Of a DNA stretch of 64,000 nt, positions 52,495 to 60,730 are shown in pieces (position 1 is the stretch's first letter; each line of letters begins with the position of its first letter). Position numbers and translations under genes: made by a program. This DNA comes from Dermatophagoides farinae (lineage: Eukaryota; Arthropoda; Arachnida; Sarcoptiformes; Pyroglyphidae), in assembly GCF_024713945.1 (NCBI RefSeq), contig NC_134677.1:2793001-2857000 (forward strand), read 5' to 3'. The notes beneath the pieces are model-generated. The model worked only from the letters and a program-made list of their open reading frames with translations. It ran no database searches and was not told where the DNA came from.

Positions 52495-54002
52495 TTAGGC
52501 AATACGACGACAAATCAGATAGAAAAAGGTGCTTATATTGATCATCAACTGAATTTTTTTTGAAAAAGAAAGTTAAAAGTAATTAGTTATTTGGATTTGT
52601 ACAAGAAAAAAAAATATCTTCAACATACAGCGAATTGAGTTCTTCCTGTAATGACACTACCATCCAATAACATCATACCAACGGGACATTCCAGCATTGT
52701 ACTCGTAACCGATTCTTGCTATTTGTACATTTTCATCATGATGAACGAGAATAAGTTCAATTATCTTTAAATATTTGGTAATAAATAATCATCTTACCTT
52801 AAGCAAATATTTATTATTGAAAAAATGATGTTCATTACAAAGACATTTTCGATTTAAACGGAGAAAATTTCTATTTAGATATTCAATTTTTGAACCATAT
52901 TGTATTAATGCTGATAATGAAATTAGATGGGCAACATAGATGATAAGATATGCATTTACGTATAGAATGGGCATCCAAGCCAAAAATAGTACACATTCTA
53001 AATAGGTTAAAGCAACGGAAAAACTGATAAACAATATGGATAAAAATCGGACCAATTGTATGCTGTTGAAAACAATTTCTTTTTGTAGCTCAACAAATGC
53101 CTTATTCAATTTGACGAATTCAAAATAACGTATTTGAAATAATTTTCGATTTCCTCGTATCAATCGCAAGTAAAATCTATGCATTTTTCGCTGTAAAAAT
53201 TTTTGTTTTAAAATCAAATAATGATTGACCGTTAAAATGAAGGTCGGAAATTGATATGAGCCTATTGATTAATTAATTATCATTAATAAATATTATCAAT
53301 AATGATAATAAACATACCTGAACATGCATACAAACACCACGGCATAAAAATTGCACCCCAAAAAAATAGCCATATTATTGAATGTTCCCAAAGACGTTGT
53401 TGTATGACGCCAAATGAAACGGCAATCCATGCTGAAAATGCAATTAAACTACATGTTATTCGTTCTATTGAAAACACACGATCACGAAATAATCGTAAAC
53501 GTCGTAGATTTTCCTGATCTAAACCAAGTCCATTCGATTTATTCAAATGTAATACATGCAAAAATTGATAATGTCGCAAATCTGTTGAAAGACCATAGAA
53601 TACTTGAAATATATAGTTTACTGCCCATATTAAACTCATTGTTGAACAATATATTCGAATATTAGCTGGGTACATATACGTTACAATAAGAAAAAATGGA
53701 TGCACATAAACAATATCTGGCCAAATAAGATAGGCAATTAGAACGAAAGAGTATAAACAGCTGATCAGACCGGGTACAATTGCATTCCAGAATGGACGAC
53801 GAATCATTTCGTTTGATTTCTCGATTTGTACACTTTCATTATAATTTTCCGTTGATAGTGGATGGTATTGTTTTCGTATTATTTCATCATAATGATATAG
53901 ATTATTGATATTATTGTGTATGAAACGATAGTATTTATTTTTCATCAATTTTTTCCACAAATTTATTTCCAGATTGAGTATATTCATTTTTGTTAGTTTC
54001 AA
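52495..54002 (-). CDS. Gustatory-receptor-like seven-helix protein (GR-A)
   Basis: Four exons: 53318-54002, 52798-53261, 52629-52718 and 52495-52548. Introns are 56, 79 and 80 nt, phases 1, 0, 0, all GT-AG. The product is 430 residues. The N-terminus carries the array signature LxxEhxLW...YYRxxHNxIxxLYxxDE. Hydrophobic helices lie near residues 72-95, 112-137, 183-205, 207-245, in the C-terminal half of exon 2 (two helices), and in the last exon. A charged stretch (KQKFLQRKMHRF) forms the long loop before helix 5. The C-terminus (…GRTQFA, then MINISTFFYLIC) matches the GR layout, where helix 7 carries a T-Y/F-hydrophobic motif after phase-0 introns. The likely role is a plasma-membrane chemosensory ligand-gated channel subunit. 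Ligand unknown. It is a recent tandem duplicate of GR-B. Confidence 0.85.
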
Positions 54003-54912
54003 TTTGATTTCTCCATGATAACAGTCGAATTTAAGGTAAAATTTTCAAATGTTTGCTTATTCTTTGAACTTTTCACCAAGCAAATCAAATTTGCCAACAT
54101 CAACAACACAGAGAGGATAAAAGTCAAGATTTTCAAATTTATTTTTCAAACAAAAAAAAATACAAATTATTTTCCAGCAGTTATCGGTATATCAAGTAAA
54201 GAGACAATGATGACAATTTGAAAAGCAATGAAAAAAAGAAACGATGAACGTTTCTCTTTTTCTGGTTTAAAATTAGTCTTCGTTGGTTGTGGTGTTCATT
54301 CAATTGTGAATGACAATATTTTCACTTCAAACAAAAAAAAATAAAAATAAAATTATATCATTTGAATTGTTAAAATAGAATTTAATGTACCATTAATGAT
54401 AATTGGGAAAAATTATTGATGTAAAAATGAATAAAAAATTTTCGATACGTCCAATTTATTATTCGATTCAAAATTTCAAAGAATTCAATCAATTTTGTTT
54501 TGGGTGATATTCACAAAGCGCGAGTGTCCTCTTGCGGTTGAATCGGAAAGTAGAGCAACAACAAAAAATTTAACGAATTTTCTTCAAGCAATTTGCTGAG
54601 ATATTAGAACTGGAACACTTTTTTCTAAATCAATCGTCCTGCTGCAAATAGTTTGGTCATCTTATCATCAAATGTTAGAAATTTATTTTCTTAGACTTTT
54701 ATTGAAACAAACAAATTCAAGCATTTCTAATACAGTGCTATCATTACTACAAGTTATAATCAAGAATTCAATGCTAGAAAGGGATAACAATGAATATATT
54801 TTCTGTAATTTTGTATTTCAAATTTTAACCAAATTTGTTGACGATACTTTGAACAATGAATGAATGAACAACGAAACCAAAATTACATCTTAATATTGAA
54901 TTTCTATAACGT
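54003..54912. other. GR-A/GR-B intergenic spacer with a terminal-exon relic
   Basis: The part next to GR-A matches the 5' flank of GR-B (56428-57342), for example the word around 54190-54260. At 54584-54609 it holds the tail of a terminal GR exon matching the GR-C last exon with one mismatch; homology then stops abruptly. From about 54625 the sequence is instead the 3' flank of GR-B. The junction near 54610-54625 therefore marks the tandem-duplication breakpoint. Confidence 0.8.
54584..54609 (-). pseudogene. 26-bp relic of a GR terminal exon
   Basis: This segment equals the last 26 bases of the GR-C coding sequence (57343-57368), stop codon included, with one mismatch. The upstream part of the exon and its acceptor are missing. 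It was carried along when the unit containing GR-A was duplicated. Confidence 0.8.
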
Positions 54913-56427
54913 TTAGGCAATACGACGACAAATCAGATAGAAAAAGGTGCTTATATTGATCATCAACTGAATTTTTTTTTTGAAAAAGAAAGTTAAAAGT
55001 AATTAGTTATTTGGATTTGTACAAGAAAAAAAAATATCTTCAACATACAGCGAATTGAGTTCTTCCAGTAATGACACTACCATCCAATAACATCATACCA
55101 ACGGGACATTCCAGCATTGTACTCGTAACCGATTCTTGCTATTTGTACATTTTCATTATGATGAATGAGAATAAATCAATTAACTATAAAAATTTGGCAA
55201 TAAAAATTAATAATAATCTTACTTTAAGCAAATATTTATTACTGAAAAAATGATGTTCATTACAAAGACATTTACGATTAAAACGGAGAAAATTTCTATT
55301 TAGATATTCAATTTTTGAACCATATTGTATGAATGCTGATAATGAAATTAGATGGGCAACATAGATGATTAGATAGACAATTATGTACAAAATTGGCATC
55401 CAAGCCAAAAATAGTACACATTCTAAATAGGTTAAAGCAACGGAAAAACTGATAAACAATATGGATAAAAATCGGACCAATTGTATGTTGTTGAAAACAA
55501 TTTCTTTCTGTAGCTCAACATATGCCTTATTCAATCTGACGAATTCAAAATAACGTCCTGGAAATGATTTTCGATTTCCTCGTATTAATCGCAAGTAGAA
55601 TCGTTGCATTTTTCGCTGTAAAGTTTTTTGTTTTAGAATCAAATAATAATTGACCGTTAAAATGAATGCAGAAAATTGATACAAGCCTATAGATTGATTA
55701 ATTATCATTAATAAATAATATTGATAATGATAATAAACATACCTGAAGAAACATACAAACACCACACCATAAAAATTGCACTCCAAAAAAATAGCCATAA
55801 TATTGAATGTTCCCAAAGACGTTGTTGTATGACGGCAAATGAAATAGCACTCCATGCCGTAAATCCAATTGAACTACATGTTAGTCGTTCGAATGAAAAC
55901 ACACGATCACGAAATAATCGTAAACGTCGTAGATTTTCCTGATCTAAACCACGTCCATTCGATTTATTTAAATGTAATATATGCAAAAATTGATAATGTC
56001 GCAAATCTGTTGAAAGGCCATAGAATACTTGAAATATATAGTTTACTCCCCATATTAAACTCATTATTGAACAATATATTCGAATATTAGCTGGGTACAT
56101 ATGTGGTACAATAAGAAAAAATGGATGCACATAAACAATATCTGGCCAAATGAGATAGACAAATAGACCAAAAGAATATAAACAGCAGATCAGACCGGGT
56201 ACAATTACATTCCAGAATGGACGACGAATCATTTCGTTTGATTTCTCGATTTGTTCATTTTCATTATAATTTTCCGTTGATCGTGGATAGTATTGTTTTC
56301 GTATTATTTCATCATAATGATATAGATTATTGATATGATTGTGTATGAAACGATAGTATTTATTTTTCATCAATTTTTTCCATAAATTTATTTCCAGATT
56401 GAGTATATTCATTTTTGTTAGTTTCAA
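54913..56427 (-). CDS. Gustatory-receptor-like seven-helix protein (GR-B)
   Basis: Four exons: 55743-56427, 55223-55686, 55049-55138 and 54913-54966. Introns are 56, 84 and 82 nt, phases 1, 0, 0. The product is 430 residues, the same length exon for exon as GR-A. Exon 1 differs from GR-A at roughly one residue in eight and exon 2 at roughly one in eleven. Exons 3-4 and the intron between them are virtually identical, with one base change in the 90-nt exon and a T-run length change. The start is fixed by the MKLTKMNILNLE N-terminus shared with GR-A. The topology is that of an insect-type GR: seven helices, long helix 4-5 loop, and STFFYLIC in helix 7. Likely a chemosensory membrane receptor; ligand unknown. 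Confidence 0.85.
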
Positions 56428-57342
56428 TTCGATTTCTCCATGATAACAGTCAAAATTTTCAAGTCAAGATTTTCAAATGTTTGCTTATTCTTTTAACTTC
56501 GAGAAAATCAAATAAATAAAATTTATCAATTTTTTTCAATAAAAATTTGTCAACATCTGACCAGATTCACAGCAATTATCTTGAGATTTTTCCGCGAATT
56601 TAACTTTCATTTGTTTTTTGAAATTGCACTTGTGAACAACTATTTTTTTTATTATTTCTAATACAAAAAACAAATGAAATAAAATCCTGGTTATGCGAAA
56701 TGGTTTTTTTATCCTTGACTTTATACTCGTGATGGTCAATAAAACAATGATGATAGAACCATATTCAGTTATAATCGAAATGATGATAAATGATTTTACC
56801 ATTTGATTACAATGTCGATGATTCTTTATTGGATAAACACTATTTCAAAGAGAGAAAATATAAAAGTCAAAATTTTCAAATTTATTTTTTCAAGCCAAAA
56901 AAAAAAAATTACAAATTATTTTCTTGCTGCTATTTATATATCAAGTAAAGAGACAATGATGATGATTTGAAAAGCAATGAAAAAAAAAGAAACAATGAAC
57001 GTTTCATTTTTTTCTGATTTGAATTAATAGTTCTAGTTGGTTGTGGTGTTCATTCAATTGTGAATGACAATATTTTTCATTTCGAACAAAAATAAAAATA
57101 AAATCATTATATCATTCAAATTGTTCAAATAGAATTTAATGTACCATTAATGATAATTATGAAAAATTATTGAAATAAAAATGAAAAATAAAAAATTTTC
57201 GATACGGCCAATTTATTATTCGATTCAAAACATTCAATCTCAATATTATTGGTTTGGGTTGATATTCACAAAACACGATTGTCCGTCCCCTTGCGGTTGA
57301 ATTGGAAAGTAGAGCAACAACAAAAAATTTTCCAAATTTTCT
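56428..57342. other. GR-B/GR-C intergenic spacer
   Basis: AT-rich, no exon seen. Large parts align with the GR-A upstream spacer, including ATCAAGTAAAGAGACAATGA near 56940-56960, which shows it lies inside the duplicated unit. It ends at the GR-C stop codon. Confidence 0.7.
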
Positions 57343-58786
57343 TCAAGCAATTTGCTGGGATATTAGAAAGAAAAACGTACTGATGTTGGCGAAAAGCTGT
57401 AGTTGGAATTTAAATAATGAATTTTGTTAAAAAAAATTTTGTTAAATTTTTTGATATATTACTTACGGTAATGAATGTCCTTGATGTGATTACAGTACCA
57501 TTGAACAATATGAAACCAGTTACCTTTTCTAACATTATACGGGTTAATGAATCTAACTAAAGATTTAATAAGAAATTAGCAGTGAAAGGTATTATATATT
57601 TTCATTGAGACAAACACAAAGTTACCTTGTAAAAAGTCGTACAAGACAAAACTTTTTTTTCATTTAGGAGATGAAGGCATTTTTGATTTGTTTTCAAAAA
57701 TTCACGATTCAATTGTTCAATTCTTGAACAATTATAAATCAATACTGATAATAGACCAATATGAGCTACATAAACTAAGCTATAGATGAATAGAAAATCA
57801 ATTGTTAAATCAACTAGAAAAATCAAACAAGTTAAATAAGTAATCAAAAGATTAAAACCAATGAACAATATGTTCAGATAACGCTTCAATTGTTGATCAT
57901 TAGAAACGATTTCTTTTTGAAGGTTTTTATAATTCTGATTTAATGTATTCAATTGCGATCGCATCCAACGTTTCCCTTTGTTGATATTTTCATTGTTGCA
58001 CAAGAGACCTCGGAATCTATACATTTTCTCTTGTATAGATTTTTGTTTCAATATTAAATAATATTGTACTATGACAATGAATGTTGGAAATTGATATGTA
58101 CTCGAACAAATATGCCAAACGCAGAAATCAAAAACGATTGCCCAAAAAATTGTCAAATAAACGGACACAGTCCATGCCGAATGTTGTATAATCATCGATA
58201 ACATTAACAATGGACATATGGTTGCAATCGATATAATCAGACATCTTTCCAACGATAATAATCGATTTCGGAATAATTTAAATTGATACAATTCACATGT
58301 TCGTAGCCCACCATTATCTTTATCATTTAGATTTAAAACATGTAAAAAGCCGTATCGTTCAATTTGGGTAGAATGTCCGTAAAACATCTGAAAAAAGTGC
58401 ATTGTAGACCATATGACATTCAATGTCAATACATATCTTGGGCCATTCTTTGGAATGAATTGTGGCAATACTTGAAAGAATTTATATTGTTCCAAGAATT
58501 CCAATCGAAGAACAAATGGTAATGCACCAATAACGAACATCATGTTAACCATGCCTGGAAGGATTACATTCCAAAATGATCGTGGAATTATATCAATCGA
58601 TTCTTTCGTTGCTGTTGTTTTTGCATCCAATCGATCATTATCACCACAGCTTTTAAGGCGATCATATCTTAGTTGAATGAAATCATTATAGTAAAATAAC
58701 TGATTGATGTGATTATGAATACGACGATAATATGGATTTTTCATCCATTTTTGCCATAAATTTGTCTCCAAATCCAATAGATTCAT
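57343..58786 (-). CDS. Gustatory-receptor-like protein with fused first exon (GR-C)
   Basis: Three exons: 57626-58786, 57467-57556 and 57343-57396. The two introns are 69 and 70 nt, both phase 0. The product is 434 residues. Exon 1 covers what is split into two exons in every other complete copy. At the junction it reads CSSTYQFPTF where GR-A reads CSG|SYQFPTF, so intron 1 is missing without any insertion or deletion. The protein keeps the N-terminal LxxExxLW...YYRRIHNHI signature, the helix 4-5 loop (KQKSIQEKMYRF), the RIEQLNREF segment after helix 6, and a helix 7 of NISTFFFLIS. The 90-nt exon has the array motif G-F-x-L-x-N-G-x-V-x-T. Likely a chemosensory receptor. Confidence 0.85.
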
Positions 58787-59080
58787 TATATGGATTAGTA
58801 TTGTATTAGTTATTCATGTCACTACTATGATGATCAAATTTGCAATGAAATATCGGTATATTATTATCATTTTTGAATACAATTCATTCGGATAGATATT
58901 TTAAAAAACACATGGAAAAAATCTCATAATCATATTTATGAATGATCATAAAAATTTGGATATTTCAATATATAGAATTTTATTTGGTTTATAATTTTAA
59001 TTTTATTCTAAATTCTAAATAAATTATCGACAAAAGACGAATGTATCATTCTACCTCATTTCATAAATCACATAACCATT
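58787..59080. other. GR-C/GR-D intergenic spacer
   Basis: A short AT-rich spacer of 294 bp holding the 5' flank of GR-C and the 3' flank of GR-D. Any promoter for GR-C must lie here or inside GR-D. No motif recognised. Confidence 0.6.
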
Positions 59081-60349
59081 TTAAGAAATATTCGATGATA
59101 TTAAAAAGAAAAAGGTAGTTAAGTTAACAAAAACCTTGAATAATAATAAAAAAAAAATAAAAATAAAAATTTGATTACAAAATCAATCAAAATGAATCAT
59201 AAAAAAAATCATACGGTTATAAATGTATTCGATGTGATTGTTACACCATTGACTAATGAAAAACCAGGTGTTTTTTTCAACAAAGTACCATTAATTTCGC
59301 CAAACTATGTAAAAAAAATTCACAATAATTTGATTATGTAATATGTTGTTAATCAATTTTTTGTTTCTCAAATATACCTTATATGTTTTTCGAATAATCA
59401 TTGGTAAATAATTCAAACATTTTTGATTCATTTTCAAAAATGACCAATTTTGTTGTTCAATTCTGGAACAATTATAAATGAATATGGATAGTATCAATGA
59501 ATGATTACAGAACAAACAACGGAATGGATATTTATAACCAGGTGATACGTTGGCCAAAAATAATAGACAAGCTATATATGTTAATAATAAAATCATTCCC
59601 AGAAACAATATACTCAAGAAACGTGTCAATTGTTTATTTATGTTTTCAATTTCTTTCAATAGTTGAACAAACTGATTATTGATTTGATCATATTGAAATT
59701 GTCGTAAAAGTTTTCCATTTTGATAACTTGAATATTTAACCATACATTTTTGATAAAATTGATCAATTTTTTTCTTTATTGATCGTTGTTTCATGATCAA
59801 ATACCATTGTAAAATGACTATGAATGCAGAATATTGGTAAATTGCTTTATAAATTAATCATCAGATAGATTCAATTTTTTAAACAAACAATTAATTAATA
59901 AATTCAAACCTGAACAAATGTAGTAGGCATTTATCTGAAAAACTAGAAACCAAAATATAGTCCATACGATTGAAATATTCCACATATTTCCGGTTATTAT
60001 TGAAAATATCCATACGAAATGTGTTAAATAACAAAAAGTAAGGATCATAGATCGATTCATCGATAATAATCGATCACGAATATTTATAATCCATTGAAAT
60101 TGTTGTCGACTCATTAATTCCAATTCATTTACGTTGCTTTCAAGATGGAGAATATGCAAAAATCTATATTGTTCAATTCGTGTGGATAGACCAAAGAACA
60201 TTTGCAATATGACAATTAATGCCCATACAGCAATAACAGTTAGATTATATTTTTTTGCTTCTTCAGGAAGAAACGCTGGTAATGTATTGAAGAATGCATA
60301 TCGTTTTAAATGTTGACTCCAGATGACAAAGGACATTGCACCAAATATG

Positions 60350-60514
60350 TACACAGCCAGGGCCGGCCGAGAAAATCGCGAGGCCTTGTGCAAAAATAGC
60401 TTGAAAAGTTGGAGCCGCGAGGCCCTGTGTTGTACAGCGGAAAGGGCGAAGGCAGCGCGAGGCCTTGTGCGGTGCACAGTCTGCACAGGCGCCTCGGCCG
60501 GCCCTGTACACAGC
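60350..60514. repeat. 8-bp target site duplication around the GR-D MITE
   Basis: TACACAGC occurs at 60350-60357 and again at 60507-60514, directly bordering the element on both sides without mismatch. Confidence 0.93.
60358..60506. mobile_element. GC-rich hAT-type MITE, 149 bp, inside GR-D exon 1
   Basis: The element has 14-bp perfect terminal inverted repeats (CAGGGCCGGCCGAG) and is flanked by an 8-bp duplication, both typical of hAT transposons. It is strikingly GC-rich against its AT-rich surroundings. Inside it are three direct copies of CGCGAGGCC(T/C)TGTG at 60377-60390, 60416-60429 and 60456-60469, spaced 39 and 40 bp. There is no transposase, so it is non-autonomous. The perfect ends imply recent insertion. 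It shares only the CAGGGC start with the element at 36034, so it belongs to a different MITE family. Confidence 0.94.
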
Positions 60515-60730
60515 ATTACATATACTTGGCATTATAAGATGTAAAAATGAACGTGGAATTTTACCATTTGCGTCGATAATTTCACCATCTTCTAATTGAT
60601 GATTTTCGTATTTTTGTAATAATTCATCAAAATGATATAGGATCATAATATGATTGTGGATGATACGATAATATTTATTCAACATCATTCTTTTCCACAA
60701 ACGAATTTCCCAATCAAGCAGTGCTGCCAT

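Follow-up and report, generated by a model that had tools for sequence, protein, structure and literature searches.

MITEs of the hAT superfamily are small, non-coding elements with short inverted ends that are flanked by an 8-bp duplication and occur as dispersed, near-identical copies. The element described here, which lies in the gene GR-D of the house dust mite Dermatophagoides farinae, has all these features. It differs from such MITEs in that no partner that shares its ends and encodes a transposase was found in the genome, and in that it has a G+C content of 64% in a window (the whole stretch of 64,000 nucleotides that was analyzed) of 28% G+C. In gustatory receptors, the 3´ exons are small, follow phase-0 introns and carry a C-terminal signature. 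The family of GR-D (family 1) resembles the arthropod gustatory receptors (7tm_7, PF08395) in its length, tandem arrays, hydrophobic segments and small phase-0 last exons, whereas the 7tm_7 model misses family 1 and has its seven genome matches elsewhere. According to PMC6175461, the chemoreceptor pseudogenes of the cockroach Blattella germanica mostly carry a single lesion. Like these pseudogenes, GR-D belongs to a multi-copy family whose broken members mostly show one lesion; unlike them, it was disrupted by a recognizable MITE and comes from a family whose chemosensory role is putative. Given the cockroach pseudogenes, the loss of GR-D is an expected kind of event. For D. farinae, published reports describe a culture that had been maintained in the laboratory over many generations, with a heterozygosity of 0.52% and a genome share of 0.09% for DNA transposons (PMC11074847), and transposable elements at about 9.7% in another assembly (PMC8487952). 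The literature surveyed, represented mostly by titles and the beginnings of abstracts, names neither this MITE nor a loss of GR-D.

GR-D is a four-exon gene on the minus strand (60730–59081) with introns of 65, 73 and 80 nt, and the MITE is located within its first exon, which ends at 59910 (Table 1). The region 60350–60514 (165 bases) consists of the 149-bp element and both copies of the duplicated target TACACAGC, and the net gain of 157 bp shifts the reading frame by one. The first-pass annotation had described perfect 14-bp inverted repeats and a perfect 8-bp duplication, and both are found, with TACACAGC on each side. Its assignment of the element to the hAT-type MITEs also agrees with the 8-bp duplication, the hAT-like ends and the near-identical dispersed copies; because no autonomous parent was found, the assignment is based on the duplication and the end sequence. 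The inverted ends begin with CAGGG, in agreement with the consensus of hAT ends.

Table 1. Features of the GR-D locus and of other genes of the two families (positions without prefix are those of the window).
Feature	Position	Strand	Remarks
hAT-type MITE, 149 bp, perfect 14-bp inverted ends	60358-60506	.	sequence read
Target-site duplication TACACAGC, first copy	60350-60357	.	
Target-site duplication TACACAGC, second copy	60507-60514	.	
GR-D exon 1 with element	59910-60730	-	821 nt; 664 nt once the 157 bp are omitted; GR-C-matched pieces
GR-D exon 2	59378-59844	-	GR-C genome match and splice reading
GR-D exon 3	59215-59304	-	90 nt; GR-C arranged alike
GR-D exon 4	59081-59134	-	54 nt including stop; GR-C arranged alike
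GR-C, intact neighbor for comparison	57605-58813	-	one open frame spans exons 1-2; last exons lower
GR-A and GR-B, recent tandem duplicates	52792-54044 and 55187-56463		87% identical over exon 1
Family-1 gene, in-frame TAA in exon 1	C1:1106071-1106712		L016 (C1:1106050-1108190)
Family-1 gene, frame-shifting tandem duplication within exon 1	C1:1092777-1094045		L068 (C1:1092600-1094500)
Family-1 gene without recognizable exon 2	C1:1097237-1097926		L035 and L040 (C1:1097237-1100567)
Family-2 gene, frameshift near residue 127	C5:4182576-4183938		L067 (C5:4182400-4184100)

With the element in place, the frame reads through 75 native codons and then through element-encoded and frame-shifted codons up to a stop at codon 156, which agrees with the early frame shift in exon 1 noted in the first-pass annotation. 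When the flanks are joined with the 157 bp omitted, the four exons form a frame of 1275 nt in which the sole stop is the terminal one. GR-C can be aligned with the joined GR-D over the full length and ungapped at the insertion site; the first-pass annotation had noted that removal of the 157 bp gives the phase and length expected from the paralogues. The exon-1 pieces found by searching the genome with GR-C (query residues 7–96 and 92–238) flank the MITE on both sides; a profile made from GR-D and its paralogues, which includes GR-D itself, also places exon-1 pieces on either side. No second lesion was seen in the 1275-nt frame, whether a stop, a shift of the frame or the loss of a splice site, and the remaining exons and splice sites look intact, as had been claimed. 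The insertion in GR-D, read in one assembly, is real. With the frame shifted by the 157-bp gain and translation stopped at codon 156, a working GR-D protein is very probably not made from the sequenced haplotype.

We consider it highly likely that a hAT-type MITE inserted into exon 1 of a member of a tandem receptor-like family and thereby broke GR-D on the sequenced haplotype. A hAT transposase supplied from elsewhere would have moved the short MITE into exon 1 of one member of the array, which would encode a divergent receptor-like membrane protein. Fill-in of an 8-bp staggered cut would have left TACACAGC on both sides, and the gain in length shifts the frame past codon 75, with translation ending at codon 156.

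When the element region was used to search the genome, 40 matches were scored, which include longer relatives and fragments. Both ends were read in context for 26 elements, 17 of them small (115–149 bp) and nine of 1.9–2.3 kb; the fragments L019, L025, L026 and L028, single ends and a long pair with an unread far end (C9:2017320-2019518) lie outside this set. Perfect 8-bp duplications flank 23 of the 26 elements; the exceptions are L021, L041 and L023, and in L023 the duplication has one mismatch. The exact 11-bp end of the MITE occurs 57 times in the genome, compared with no occurrence of the reversed control. Among the loci read, 15 copies are exactly 149 bp long, and 11 are within two differences of their consensus. 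This young subfamily of 11 copies shows 10 differences from the consensus in 1639 bp, of which three are private (0.18%) and seven fall at two shared sites. The copy in the window matches one copy on C8 and one on C3 at all 149 positions, and its one difference from the consensus is at a site common to five copies. The near-identity of the 11 copies, with three private differences, demonstrates that the MITE family is young and moved recently. The date of the insertion in GR-D, presumably also recent, is less tightly bounded, because 149 bases can stay unchanged for a long time.

No transposase was found in the eight relatives of 2.07–2.32 kb and the one of 1.93 kb that share the MITE ends. 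These nine long relatives, considered as autonomous parents, were rejected, as they contain repeats and no open frame longer than 126 residues. They (L037–L044 and L059) form a second non-autonomous group of 1.9–2.3 kb with MITE ends, and are alike except that some differ in how many internal tandem repeats they contain. A search of the genome with PF05699 gave five hAT transposase loci, and the MITE ends are absent as a pair from all five. One of them (L054 3123-4991; C2, near 3119921) contains an open frame of 623 residues for a hAT transposase with a BED zinc finger and the dimerization domain. The right end of this locus resembles the MITE end with 2 mismatches in 11; a search for a left end and a duplication at C2:3119921 found neither. 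A weak pair of ends around one of the five loci (L056, three mismatches at each end) was discarded, as it has no matching duplication.

Searching the genome with the GR-C protein gave 49 exon-level matches, including those of the query itself, which are located in arrays at C1:2.846–2.862 Mb (in the window and beyond), C1:1.070–1.107 Mb and C4:0.598–0.603 Mb and at more places on C10 and C3. The genes form tandem arrays and encode several hydrophobic segments, and in both GR-D and GR-C two phase-0 introns precede exons of 90 and 54 nt. The length, arrays, hydrophobic segments and small phase-0 last exons of family 1 look like those of gustatory receptors. The Pfam search of family 1 gave nothing above the cut-offs, and a whole-protein Pfam search at E values up to 10 gave one unrelated sub-threshold match and no 7tm_7. 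Over the genome, 7tm_7 (PF08395) has two of its seven matches above the cut-off, and none of the seven is within the family-1 arrays. The PDB profile search of family 1 returned chance-level matches only. The single-sequence fold model of GR-C is helical, at a pLDDT of 44.6 that is too poor to use, and has no PDB match at E values up to 0.001. Family 1 is thus called 'receptor-like' by the form of the gene family only, since the match to 7tm_7, a defining feature that was tested, is absent. Of the chemoreceptor identity proposed in the first-pass annotation, the gene-family form stands, and Pfam, 7tm_7, the PDB and the fold model add no support. Family 1 could instead be another, non-chemosensory class of multi-pass membrane protein, as the lack of matches to 7tm_7, to other Pfam models above cut-off and to PDB sequences would allow; we regard this as rather unlikely, since family 1 resembles gustatory receptors in its tandem arrays, protein length, hydrophobic segments and small last exons that follow phase-0 introns. 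The related D. pteronyssinus has four gustatory-receptor-like genes, according to PMC12105342.

GR-D is not a single case of a broken family member. Four of the 15 family-1 genes read are broken, where the 15 comprise GR-A to GR-E, three genes outside the window (L048), three on C4 and, from the array at C1:1.07–1.11 Mb, four; the count thus covers part of that array and excludes the matches on C10 and C3. The same MITE at C9:3061096-3061244 (L013 997-1145; duplication, TTCATATG) interrupts an open frame of 428 codons in family 2, a second multi-copy membrane-protein family with paralogues at C4:1.030–1.039 Mb, C4:2.478 Mb and C5:4.183 Mb. Two of the seven family-2 genes read are broken and the other five are open. 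The PDB profile search of family 2 gave chance-level matches, and a comparison of the two families with hhalign revealed no link (probability 0.4%). Over both families, 6 of the 22 genes read are broken, five of them with one visible lesion, with the proviso that most of the 22 were judged on exons 1 and 2 and that single-base lesions may be assembly errors. The first-pass annotation had presented GR-D as a gene just silenced and caught at the first step of pseudogenization. One insertion plausibly inactivated the sequenced copy recently; the emphasis on a special first step is overstated, given the six broken genes.

Since family-1 members are often broken, relaxed constraint in this family is likely. 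The recent tandem duplicates GR-A and GR-B have a dS of 0.08 and a dN/dS of 0.73 over exon 1, and one family-2 pair has a dS of 0.16 and a dN/dS of 0.53. Judged from these pairs, constraint appears weak in families 1 and 2, which says nothing on GR-D itself. A comparison of dN/dS between GR-D and its paralogues, suggested in the first-pass annotation, was uninformative, because the synonymous distance over exon 1 is too high (1.02, 1.07, 2.49 and 1.69 to GR-A, GR-B, GR-C and GR-E, respectively), at least 1.02 in all four pairs. GR-D could have been dead already, through a regulatory or missense change, when the MITE arrived. The frequency of broken genes in family 1 and the dN/dS of the duplicate pair in the array of GR-D would fit such a history; the 1275-nt frame of GR-D, in which no further lesion was seen, speaks against it, and we think it unlikely. 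At the private divergence of the MITE family, about two substitutions are expected per 1275-nt frame, and 6.3% of substitutions create a stop. A clean remainder of GR-D would therefore be seen even with a gene that died at the insertion, and is evidence neither of polymorphism nor of an ongoing loss.

Open frames of more than 200 codons are interrupted at 2 of the 26 elements, in GR-D and at C9:3061096-3061244. The next-longest frame that crosses an element has 194 codons and is of low complexity; the shorter frames across other element sites, of up to 158 codons, may or may not be coding. Elements also occur upstream of two of the broken family-1 genes. A MITE copy is located 331 bases upstream of the ATG of the TAA-bearing gene (L016), and a 2.3-kb relative of the MITE is located 331 bases upstream of the gene without a recognizable exon 2 (L035/L040). 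A common ancestral insertion for these two elements was rejected, as the flanks are dissimilar (best local score of 37, whereas 50 shuffles reach up to 44) and the two elements have different duplications; the shared distance is therefore taken as a coincidence. The binomial tail for elements within 60 kb of family-1 arrays is 2.3e-6 for 3 of 26 elements and 2.7e-4 for 2 of 25 when the GR-D copy is left out, where two of the three elements lie in one array and one of them had set the boundary of that array. For coding insertions in both families, with a roughly guessed coding length, the tail is 1.5e-4 for 2 of 26 and 0.017 for 1 of 25. We do not rely on these tails for an enrichment in receptor-like arrays, as the tests were chosen post hoc and selection purges insertions elsewhere. 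That a recently active MITE family recurrently disrupts receptor-like genes, and could prefer such loci beyond the effect of weaker purging, is an unlikely proposition.

The insert could in principle be partly spliced out or bypassed, so that GR-D would still yield a protein altered near the N-terminus. Five GT-AG pairs could remove part of the insert in frame. The MITE contains no stop in the three frames along the gene, and because the downstream frame is open through the MITE to an ATG just upstream, an altered protein by internal initiation is possible, though not indicated. In contrast, 300 shuffled inserts have on average 8.0 in-frame GT-AG pairs, and 73% give at least five (the splice sites of the family itself were not used in the scoring). 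Since shuffled inserts give as many or more, the five pairs are no sign of selection, and we consider rescue of GR-D very unlikely. An assembly artefact, in which a wrong join or collapse placed the MITE in GR-D, would be conceivable with many near-identical copies in the genome and a single assembly, and is extremely improbable, since a complete MITE with a perfect local duplication fits transposition and hardly a wrong join, and GR-D continues in order on either side of the element.

Insertion of the MITE into an otherwise clean GR-D thus remains the preferred explanation, and the loss is a clearly documented and ordinary kind of gene loss. Family 1 is missed by the domain models tried and merits annotation. 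The presence or absence of the insertion can serve as a marker to distinguish a fixed from a segregating loss. GR-D illustrates clearly how a gene can be lost to one small transposon in a rapidly changing family of the house dust mite, an ordinary case of birth-and-death turnover.
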